The notes under the pieces are model-generated. The model saw only the letters and a list, made by a program, of their open reading frames with translations. It made no database searches and was not told the DNA's origin. From Pelagibacterium luteolum (GTDB lineage Bacteria; Pseudomonadota; Alphaproteobacteria; Rhizobiales; Devosiaceae), in contig NZ_FNCS01000010.1 of assembly GCF_900100665.1 (NCBI RefSeq), forward strand, positions 1 to 64,000: DNA of 64,000 bases. Reading direction: 5' to 3'. The first letter of the stretch is position 1. Each line of letters starts with the position of its first letter. Made by a program: the position numbers and the translations under genes. This document shows, in pieces, positions 11,600 through 46,280 of this stretch.

Positions 11600-11720
11600 C
11601 CCTCGCCCTTCCAAACCGGTGCGGTTTTACGCCGCGTTTCCGGTTTGGCTTAGCAATTGATGTCATTGACGCCAAGCGCCATTTGGCAGTAAGTCAGAGT
11701 TGACTACGGCTTATGTCGGA

Positions 11721-11780
11721 GTTGGTGGTGATTTGGCCGGTCCGATTGCAGGCCACCTTAAACTTGCTGCTAAAGAGACC
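11721..11780 (+). promoter_or_regulatory. SAM-II riboswitch upstream of metZ
   Basis: The stem GGTGG / CCACC encloses TGATTTGGCCG, then GATTGCAGG, and is followed by TTAAAC and TGCTAAAG. These are the conserved blocks and order of the SAM-II (metA) aptamer, an H-type pseudoknot common in Alphaproteobacteria before methionine genes. SAM binding should reduce metZ expression. Confidence 0.85.
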
Positions 11781-11787
11781 CGTTCGC

Positions 11788-11818
11788 ACCGGCCGCATAT
11801 CGCGCGCCGGTTTTTTTG
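11788..11818 (+). terminator. intrinsic terminator downstream of the SAM-II aptamer
   Basis: ACCGGC pairs with GCCGGT, extended by CGC/GCG, followed directly by seven T residues. It lies 8 nt after the aptamer and 17 bp before the metZ start, so control here is probably by premature termination. It could instead be an upstream unit's terminator, but no such gene is seen. Confidence 0.75.
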
Positions 11819-24455: not shown

Positions 24456-24616
24456 GGCTCAGAACTCCTTGCCAAAGCTCGGGCCGTCCCGAAACGATTC
24501 CCGCGATTGGGGGAGGTCGTCCTCACACGAGGCTATTTAGTACCTATGGCGGGCAAGTCAAGCTAGCTCAAATCCGGCACAATGTTCCTCTCTGCGCCCC
24601 CGATCACCCTCGCGCG

Positions 24617-44659: not shown

Positions 44660-44867
44660 ACCGGGTCTTCGGCCAAACGCGGCGCACAAAATTTGGCCTC
44701 GAGCGAAGCGGCATCCGAATCGAGCACGCGAAGTATTGCGCAAAGCCAAGCCTTTGAGAATCCCTTGTTTTCTCATACTCACACACACCATCGTGCATGG
44801 ATGGCGAAAGATTTTCTCTTGTCAGAACTTTGAAATCGAGACACCATGATCTCGGTTTCAACCAAGC

Positions 44868-44883
44868 GAAAGGAGGTGATCCA
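44868..44883 (+). promoter_or_regulatory. extended Shine-Dalgarno, 16-nt complement of the 16S rRNA 3' end
   Basis: GAAAGGAGGTGATCCA is the exact reverse complement of the conserved 16S tail TGGATCACCTCCTTTC found in Alphaproteobacteria. It directly abuts the ATG at 44884, with 7 nt between GGAGG and the start. A 9-bp hairpin (GAAATCGAG/CTCGGTTTC, 44832-44859) lies just upstream. Confidence 0.75.
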
Positions 44884-44961
44884 ATGTCTAGTGAGATCCG
44901 CGCAGGCGGGAGTGACTTTGGGTATGAGGTGATTTTGACGGGGCAGCCCTCGCCAAGATGA
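44884..44961 (+). CDS. candidate 25-aa small protein or leader peptide
   Basis: The ORF begins MSSEIRAGGSDFG and ends QPSPR. It is too short for routine gene calling but has an exceptional ribosome binding site. The same frame is open upstream to an ATG at 44797 without a good start. Hairpins follow at 44972-44993 and 44995-45010, then a terminator at 45021, so the unit looks self-contained. No family recognised. It could instead be a ribosome-binding regulatory RNA. 44660-44796 shows no other gene. Confidence 0.5.
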   Translation: MSSEIRAGGSDFGYEVILTGQPSPR

Positions 44962-45020
44962 ACATCCCTCCGAACCGCTTGGATTAGCGGTTCAGTCACC
45001 ACCGAGTGACGGTATCATGG

Positions 45021-45056
45021 AAGGACTGCTCGCTTTGTCGGGCAGTCCTTTTTCTT
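45021..45056 (+). terminator. intrinsic terminator of the small-ORF unit
   Basis: AAGGACTGC and GCAGTCCTT pair as a 9-bp stem around 12 nt, followed by TTTCTTT. It lies between the small ORF and the FMN riboswitch, separating the two transcription units. Confidence 0.85.
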
Positions 45057-45132
45057 TGCAGCCATGCCCTTGCACAATGCTGCTCGCAACGCTATTTTTC
45101 CATCGTCATTTGACGATCAAGTGACGACATAT

Positions 45133-45276
45133 GTTCTCAGGGCGGGGTGAAAGTCCCCACCGGCGGTAATGAGCGCGATGCGCTTGAAGCCCGCGAGCGC
45201 CTCTCTTGAAAGAGAGAGGGTCAGCAGATTCGGTGCAACTCCGAAGCCGACGGTCATAGTCCGGATGAAAGAGAAC
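45133..45276 (+). promoter_or_regulatory. FMN riboswitch (RFN element)
   Basis: Conserved RFN blocks are present in order: TTCTCAGGGCGGGGTGAAAG, CCCACCGGCGGTAAT, AGCCCGCGAGCG, GGTCAGCAGATTCGGTG, CCGAAGCCGACGGT, TAGTCCGGATGAAAGAGAA. The outer ends TTCTC and GAGAA close the P1 stem. It controls the adjacent carrier gene. Confidence 0.95.
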
Positions 45277-45327
45277 GGGTTTACGTGTGCAGTGCGCACG
45301 CGCTCTTGCGCGTTGCGGCGCCCTCAC

Positions 45328-45374: not shown

Positions 45375-46280
45375 ATGAGCCAGACGACCTCTGCAATTTT
45401 GAAGTCCTCCAACCTCTCCGCTGCCGCGCTTATGGTGGTGGCTGGCCTAGCCTTTGCTGGCGTCAACGTCGCGCTACAATGGGCCGGGATGATCGGGGGA
45501 CTGTCTTCGACGTCCATTGCCTTCTGGCAGTATTTTTTGGCCCTCATATTTGCGCTGCCACTCATATGGCGTCACGGGCTGGGAGCGATGCGGACCGGTC
45601 GACCTGTCCTGCACATTGCACGCGTGGTCCTGTCGGCTGGTGGTGTGCAATTGTGGATCATGGCTCTGGCTCATGTCCCGTTGTGGCAGGCCATTGCGTT
45701 GTCGATGACCTCGCCGTTTTTCGTTCTTGCCGGTGCGTCTCTGTTTCTGAGGGAGCGCGTGAGCCTGACCCGGATTGGTGCAACGATATTTGGTTTCATC
45801 GGCGCGTTGATCATCATCGCGCCCTGGTCCGAGCAATTCACCCTGCACGCACTATTGCCCATCGCTGCAGCAGCGCTTTGGGCGGGTGCCTCATTGATCA
45901 CCAAAGAGCTGACCAAGAGCGAAAGACCGGAGTCAATCGCCCTCTACCTGCTGCTGCTGCTCACCCCGGTCAATCTCGCGCTCTATCTGGGATCTGGCTT
46001 TGCATGGCCACCGTCTGACGGGTGGATGATCCTTCTGGTGGCAGGCGTTTTGACGGCAGCAGCGCAATACGCACTGACGCGCGCCTACGCCGTTGCCGAT
46101 GCATCCTATCTCCAGCCCTTCGAGGACCTGAAGCTTCCGCTCAATATCATCCTGGGGTGGGTCGTGTTCGGATTTGCACCCGATGCCGGGTTCTGGCCCG
46201 GCGCGGCGATGATCGTCCTAGGATCGCTCTATGTGATGGGCCGAGAAGGCACCAGTGGCCGACGGACGGCCAAGGCATAA
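45375..46280 (+). CDS. ribN: EamA-family riboflavin transporter, RibN-like
   Basis: 301 residues, ten predicted helices in two EamA repeats (LAFAGVNVALQW, LYVMGREG at the end). The carrier family alone does not define the substrate, but a dedicated FMN riboswitch upstream points strongly to riboflavin uptake, as described for RibN of rhizobia. The start follows GGAGAAAGG. A GC-rich hairpin lies after the stop. Confidence 0.88.
   Translation: MSQTTSAILKSSNLSAAALMVVAGLAFAGVNVALQWAGMIGGLSSTSIAFWQYFLALIFALPLIWRHGLGAMRTGRPVLHIARVVLSAGGVQLWIMALAHVPLWQAIALSMTSPFFVLAGASLFLRERVSLTRIGATIFGFIGALIIIAPWSEQFTLHALLPIAAAALWAGASLITKELTKSERPESIALYLLLLLTPVNLALYLGSGFAWPPSDGWMILLVAGVLTAAAQYALTRAYAVADASYLQPFEDLKLPLNIILGWVVFGFAPDAGFWPGAAMIVLGSLYVMGREGTSGRRTAKA

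Follow-up and report, generated by a model that had tools for sequence, protein, structure and literature searches.

The window, a 64,000-nucleotide stretch of Pelagibacterium luteolum DNA, contains an RNA unit in which GAAAGGAGGTGATCCA at 44868-44883, a 16-nt stretch perfectly complementary to the 3′ tail of 16S rRNA, adjoins the ATG of a 25-codon ORF. Judged by its sequence, this RNA is distantly related to CC2171, an sRNA of Caulobacter, and falls below Rfam's line, because it matches the CC2171 family over the full length at a score under the cut-off and because a model built from its own relatives makes the reverse finds described below. In alignments of relatives, the complement (hereafter the block) is conserved, the start and stop codons are kept, the helices covary, and most groups carry no peptide signal. 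Our leading, though tentative, reading is that the RNA is a structured, translated riboregulator that works by ribosome engagement and not by its peptide. We infer that it is transcribed in this strain, binds 30S subunits, is translated and serves a regulatory purpose. Coordinates are collected in Table 1.

Table 1. Elements of the RNA unit, in window positions, with the basis for each.
Feature	Position	Strand	Basis
Putative promoter TTGTCA, 17 nt, CACCAT; predicted transcript start near 44854	44819..44847	+	by eye
CAACAA-type leader, here CAACCAAGC	44859..44867	+	column information, 198 distinct relatives
Full-length sub-threshold match to Rfam RF01867 (CC2171)	44860..45049	+	45.1 bits, E 2.4e-8, cut-off 75
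16-nt complement of the 16S rRNA 3′ tail	44868..44883	+	congener 16S ends; rule-free reading of 60 loci
25-codon ORF MSSEIRAGGSDFGYEVILTGQPSPR; start, Ser codon 2 and stop position kept, peptide mostly not	44884..44961	+	comparison of relatives
5′ strand of closing helix P1 (codons 3-5)	44891..44898	+	covariation in relatives
CAGC-tetraloop hairpin up to the stop codon; core stem 44939-44952, loop 44944-44947	44932..44959	+	fold, covariation
Hairpin GAACCGCT/AGCGGTTC	44972..44993	+	predicted fold; variable in relatives
Possible hairpin GTCAC/GTGAC	44995..45010	+	by eye, window and most of ten genus rows
3′ strand of closing helix P1, directly before the terminator	45011..45018	+	covariation in relatives
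Intrinsic terminator	45020..45057	+	fold, covariation; not listed by a simple scan

The length of the complement is given as 16 nt because the 16S genes of two congeners terminate in ...GCGGCTGGATCACCTCCTTTCT; one mismatch flanks it on each side. Since the 16S end of the draft genome itself was not found, the match of the block to the genome's own tail is presumed. The first-pass annotation of this DNA had described a perfect 16-nt anti-Shine-Dalgarno complement touching the ATG, and both the coordinates and the two congener 16S ends agree with that description. Long Shine-Dalgarno pairing is usually viewed as a matter of degree in mRNAs. The computed pairing between the block and the 16S tail is -30.6 kcal/mol; among the 86 open frames of at least 200 codons in the window, taking the best start of each, the best pairing is -19.3 and the median is -12.6. 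Of the 14-nt core AAAGGAGGTGATCC, the draft genome (4.3 Mb) holds one exact copy; the closest other site has 1 mismatch. The window itself holds 1 exact copy of the block and 1 copy with 3 mismatches, with 0.38 expected at ≤3 mismatches.

Conservation of the block was read in two sets of loci. The rule-free set comprises 60 loci found by homology, using queries that contained ATG or GTG; the window is present twice and near-duplicates were kept. Here, the first 15 letters of the block match fully in 42 of the 60 loci, with one differing letter in 16, two in 1 and an insertion in 1. The rule-bound set required fixed letters within the block and ATG, GTG or TTG as the start codon; these rules were satisfied by 216 of 218 loci (L025 and L057 failed), and L219-L238 were deliberately excluded as genome background. 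As these rules fixed block letters and start, the block invariance and the absence of CTG in this set are partly by construction. After duplicate removal 198 loci remain, with 191 in the block-to-body energy test and 192 in the survey of P1 and terminator and in the predicted folds, where the block is partly unpaired (mean 0.40). Loci found by exact pattern, which were selected for RTGTC, were tabulated separately and left out of the claims on the start and codon 2. We reject a chance origin of the block, given the mismatch count in the window, the single core copy in the genome and the 60-locus reading. An rRNA artefact is also rejected, as the block lies within a conserved unit having its own terminator and the surrounding letters are not 16S. 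Five apparently unrelated places (L115, L132, L154, L188 and L200) have the block in common.

The short ORF keeps its two ends. In the 60 homology-found loci, to which no start rule was applied, the start codon is ATG in 45, GTG in 13 and TTG in 2, and codon 2 is TCN in 58. The stop was compared within clade groups defined by sequence motif, with P values that ignore shared ancestry. Its position is fixed, although its letters vary, in 21/21 members of the Rhodobacterales type (TGA 10, TAG 8, TAA 3; no TGG, P 0.0008 given the margins). A stop also lies at the fixed codon in 20/20 members of the Bradyrhizobium type (P 0.07) and in 10/11 members of the window genus (P 0.08), where the exception, L009, is frameshifted. 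A viral-contig copy of the Bradyrhizobium type (L248) has its stop two codons later. From codon 2 to the stop, substitutions in the Rhodobacterales type are spread evenly over first, second and third codon positions (1071/1112/928), and third positions are not enriched in the window genus (177/171/115). For the peptide test, nine groups by ORF length were compared with 300 column-shuffled alignments. The synonymous share shows no excess in most groups, including the Rhodobacterales type and the window genus, and no amino-acid-level signal past codon 2 is found in six of the nine. Amino-acid similarity is above shuffles in VSHC-24, MS-24 and MS-26 (3, 4 and 6 of 300 shuffles as good), and VSHC-24 is also above them in synonymous share (14/300 as good). 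Little variation is seen in frame codons 5 to 14 of the Bradyrhizobium type, and the peptides differ strongly from clade to clade. In L009 and L021 the reading frame is changed and the CAGC hairpin is retained. No paper containing the peptide strings was found in the open-licence literature. Because the stop is fixed, the substitutions are even and the synonymous share is mostly not above shuffles, the start and stop appear to be constrained but the peptide mostly unconstrained. On whether the peptide or only the block and stems are conserved, as the first-pass annotation had framed it, the outcome is mixed: start, stop, block and folds are kept and most groups have no synonymous excess, with three exceptions.

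Of 200 shuffles of the stretch 44797-45060, 199 fold less well than the native sequence. In the window, helix P1 forms 7 of 8 pairs, with one mismatch and a longest uninterrupted run of 4. Its letters change among relatives: the VSHC type has CAUUGUC/GACAAUG, many relatives of the MSSE type have GUGAG/CUCAY, and other forms, CATGGTT/GACCATG for example, also occur. Over 89 distinct 5′ segments, with the Bradyrhizobium type left out, cognate strands give a mean run of 5.30 versus 4.27 after strand exchange, and 0/5000 exchanges were as good; inside single clades the test is weaker (77/5000 as good in MSSE, 318/5000 in Rhodobacterales). P1 is absent in the Bradyrhizobium type. Segments +25 and +34 show no pairing above exchange. 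The segment +16 to +24, which was meant as a control, does pair above exchange (0/5000 as good), and this pairing is probably an extension of P1. On A1 (27 rows), P1, the CAGC hairpin and the terminator together have 90.1% paired cells, with 15/19 pairs changed on both sides, a level reached by 0/500 shuffles and by no slid version; the fifth P1 pair is unpaired in 12/27 rows. In or near the stop codon, 41/46 MSSE-type and 15/21 Rhodobacterales-type RNAs have a hairpin of ≥4 bp capped by a CANN tetraloop, which is mostly CAGC. The possible GTCAC/GTGAC hairpin is not in the predicted minimum-energy fold.

A terminator-like hairpin follows in 192/192 sequences under a lenient rule, and a stricter rule missed 3/21 and 9/61. 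In the window, fold and covariation support the terminator proposed earlier, though a simple scan did not list it. Upstream, inspection by eye of 13 genus copies found TTGYCA in 11, CACCAT in 8 and both in 6; a promoter scan with an E. coli-type consensus returned no site. The unit can be called self-contained, as the first-pass annotation did, in that it has its own terminator and the whole stretch is conserved in the genus; the promoter is a guess. Two other elements of that annotation do not hold up. The upstream hairpin thought to bracket the ORF runs into the likely -10 and start site; by eye, L009-L013 do not keep its arms. The ATG at 44846, proposed to open a second frame, sits in the likely -10, is absent in L009-L013 and is not conserved in the genus.

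The relation to CC2171 was found by cmscan at a permissive threshold, with the match covering model positions 1-159 of 159 in RF01867. At 45.1 bits the window copy is below the gathering cut-off (75 bits), and the full-length homology is beyond chance (E 2.4e-8). Among 19 of 30 relatives' loci, 16 reach E<0.01 against RF01867 (the best at 57.9 bits), and L020, L024 and L025 give no match at this level. The cut-off is exceeded in 6/192 class genomes, and among 14 named control genomes RF01867 occurs in Caulobacter vibrioides only. In the reverse test (25 loci), model R1, which was built from 27 relatives of the window, scores named Brevundimonas, Methylobacterium, Microvirga, Belnapia and Rhodobacteraceae copies at 39-70 bits and five loci judged block-only at 17-30 bits. 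The lowest-scoring relatives under R1 come near the block-only range (L037 33.6, L129 36.2) or fall within it (L072 29.0); for the Bradyrhizobium type, RF01867 provides the better link (L072 41.7, L129 63.2 bits). The RF01867 consensus opens with the identical block GAAAGGAGGUGAUCCA, followed by GUG-UCU-CAU. The two RNAs have in common the 5′ block, a start codon in the corresponding position (GUG in CC2171), UCU as codon 2, a similar length and a closing helix whose 3′ strand directly precedes the terminator; of these RF01867 traits, the window RNA has the block with start codon and the closing helix, the latter with one mismatch. They differ in the AUG start, the body and the CAGC hairpin of the window RNA. 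CC2171 is listed by Rfam as an sRNA, with Landt 2008 as the primary paper on it. No function for RF01867 was found in the open-licence papers searched. In the available part of the Rfam 15 paper, CC2171/RF01867 is one row of the structure-update table. The Mesorhizobium huakuii sRNA MH_s33 is annotated as RF01867 (PMC5596092), the same family call in a rhizobium and one known from annotation, not from sequence comparison; in the excerpt of that paper, annotated sRNAs were detected by RNA-seq and the MH_s33 row has a second length of 215.

The RNA is found in many genomes of the class (all genome counts include the own genome). The 421-base stretch matches 30/61 genomes, including 12/12 congeners, RF01867 matches 40/192 genomes of the class and R1 matches 41/143. 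Conservation in the congeners and in the R1-positive genomes refutes a species-only feature, the case that the first-pass annotation had set against its own proposal. The block plus start codon at ≤1 mismatch is present in 67/289 class genomes, a few of the matches looking unrelated (L188, L200). Of 299 genomes drawn from across the phylum, 67 have block and start at ≤1 mismatch; all of these are within the 113 that belong to the window's class, against 0/186 genomes of other classes of the phylum. Among the matches listed, 114 of 119 stretches carry names that we take to be alphaproteobacterial; the remaining five are three records named Proteobacteria or Pseudomonadota, one uncultured bacterium and one Acidobacteriaceae MAG (L115). 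In L115 the match lies in an apparently unrelated long frame. The Sinorhizobium and Shinella version has one extra A in the block and still pairs at -26.8 kcal/mol. Five plasmid records matched, all of them Sinorhizobium or Shinella replicons of 3.5-4.6 Mb. One copy (L253, CP090106.1 1061114-1061154) is on a 3.7-Mb Sinorhizobium meliloti record labelled pSymB, a label unlikely for its size. The PLSDB table, itself incomplete, lists no gene at the S. meliloti locus. A phage origin is rejected, as no phage record matched. Of six viral contigs, L247, L248, L250 and L252 are Bradyrhizobium- or VSHC-type copies, L249 resembles the Methylobacterium jeotgali copy, and L251 is an apparently unrelated frame. 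One genome (G070) has two block-plus-start copies, which are differing variants (C1:805113 and C1:2922051).

Since selection appears to keep ribosome entry, ribosome exit and the fold, and mostly not the peptide, we regard ribosome engagement as the most likely mode of action. The unit would yield a stand-alone RNA of ~200 nt, whose 5′ end would present a 30S subunit with the full 16S-tail complement beside the start codon. The remaining RNA would be a folded body closed by P1, between codons 3-5 and the segment before the terminator. An initiating ribosome would melt P1, then cross the short frame and leave at the stop codon in or beside the CAGC-loop hairpin. Translation might thereby remodel the body, expose part of it (for example, a target-pairing region) or destroy it, or the RNA might occupy 30S subunits. 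An RNA that holds or titrates 30S subunits would fit the constraint on start, stop and fold. A point against ribosome engagement comes from ribosome profiling (Schrader 2014), in which intergenic ncRNA regions of Caulobacter were not translated; CC2171 is unnamed in the excerpt of that paper.

In a further reading, which we consider rather doubtful, the RNA would be a 30S sensor, an alphaproteobacterial riboregulator whose ligand is the free 16S tail, with a peptide without fixed sequence and a fold that flips upon translation. The block would have two alternative partners, the ribosome and an internal mimic of the 16S tail. Block-pairing sequences recur at clade-specific places, with CTGGA..GCCTC at ~+42 in many VSHC members, TGTCACCTCG in Bradyrhizobium and CACCTCC downstream in Rhodobacterales. 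Compared with dinucleotide shuffles, the block-to-body duplex energy shows a modest excess (clade mean z -0.68 to -1.50), and 44/191 sequences have ≤5/100 shuffles as good, with ~6% expected. In the window genus, 0/11 sequences are within the best 5 of 100 shuffles. The internal mimic is a suggestive lead, and it stays so because a near-invariant block gives no covariation. Internal pairing no better than shuffles in the window genus makes the sensor less probable, and a sensor in this genus would need another closed state.

Several other explanations bear on the same evidence. The unit might be a small-protein gene, that is, an mRNA whose ribosome binding site is very strong and whose peptide has mostly 14-35 residues, which we think unlikely though worth serious consideration. 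The kept start, Ser codon 2 and stop would be expected of such a gene, the CAGC loop and the stop share a frame in 37 of the 41 MSSE-type members whose stem is at least 4 long, and three of the nine groups exceed shuffled alignments in amino-acid similarity. The strong differences between clade peptides and the lack of synonymous excess in most groups speak against it, however, and the frame changes in L009 (window genus) and L021 keep the RNA hairpin, not the peptide. Codon-position counts and column shuffles mostly reject a peptide gene, and the small protein suggested by the first-pass annotation lacks support as such, with a signal beyond codon 2 in three groups and none in six. We place less confidence still in a sponge for sRNAs with anti-Shine-Dalgarno seeds, which strikes us as improbable. 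The class has a precedent in CrfA, which acts on SisA-D in Caulobacter (PMC12559287); there too the RNA offers a target to anti-SD-type seeds, but the partners are sRNAs, and the excerpt of that paper describes no ORF or start placement. A CCUCC-type seed would need neither the conserved GATCC part nor the exactly placed start codon, and a sponge leaves the stop-codon constraint unexplained. The least credible proposal, which we regard as highly improbable, is an antisense guide or chaperone for 16S 3′-end maturation that would, for example, shield the tail. The complement does span the mature single-stranded tail, but it stops short of the trailer (the congener trailer begins AAGG), and constraint on start and stop codons would be idle.

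A leader peptide or attenuator of a downstream gene would account for a short ORF with hairpins and a terminator, and it was among the earlier suggestions. In four Rhodobacteraceae-type loci (L064, L102, L148 and L172), a gene with an RF-1 domain, which we take to be of the ribosome-rescue ArfB type, lies directly downstream and opens 172-211 nt from the RNA's start codon. Downstream of the unit in the window, an FMN riboswitch (45129-45280, 115.4 bits) precedes an EamA-family transporter gene (45375-46280), possibly a riboflavin transporter of the RibN kind. Over the 119 loci listed, however, there is no class-wide shared neighbour and no consistent downstream gene: the largest cluster has 12 loci (minus-strand frames, Rhodobacteraceae-type) and the next ones 8, among them an acetyl-CoA-synthetase-like cluster that spans orders and is upstream in 7. 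The near-universal terminator-like hairpin, allowing for the sequences missed by the strict rule, also counts against a leader, and we hold this explanation to be very unlikely. Elsewhere, a gene that we take to be release factor 3-like is divergent from the RNA in Microvirga (L084, L092, L098, L103, L113, L131, L140, L155), and what is presumably a YhhQ-family-like membrane protein gene ends just upstream of the RNA in L101, L102, L135, L143, L162 and L172.

The proposed ribosome-engaging RNA has partial counterparts among known systems. rnTrpL/peTrpL of Sinorhizobium meliloti (PMC10117765) is likewise a small RNA, of dual function, with a translated ORF of 14 aa, but it is a leaderless trp attenuator with a functional peptide, and a 16S-tail complement is unmentioned in the excerpt of the paper. 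Extended Shine-Dalgarno helices in Staphylococcus aureus, as described in the excerpt of PMC13009471, also pair beyond the usual core near the start codon; they involve two extra pairs in mRNAs, whereas here one conserved RNA has a 16-nt complement. A Ribo-seq paper on S. meliloti reports translated ORFs on annotated sRNAs, and in its available part an ORF of the window type was not identifiable among them. PMC6943124 contains the complement string, in the excerpt at hand within synthetic RNA oligos, and was rejected as a counterpart.

What sets this case apart is that one alphaproteobacterial RNA type appears to keep the whole 16S-tail complement near-unchanged, in exact register with a start codon, as its peptide drifts. 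It may offer a case, open to testing, in which translation serves as a signal and not as a route to a product, and if the RNA binds free 30S subunits, it would report directly on ribosome supply.

At Rfam gathering thresholds, the only matches in the window are the FMN riboswitch, tRNA, SAM_alpha and Guanidine-II. The SAM_alpha riboswitch match is at 11715-11794 (55.3 bits). The Guanidine-II (mini-ykkC) riboswitch match lies on the minus strand at 24479-24528, with 33.5 bits versus a cut-off of 32.
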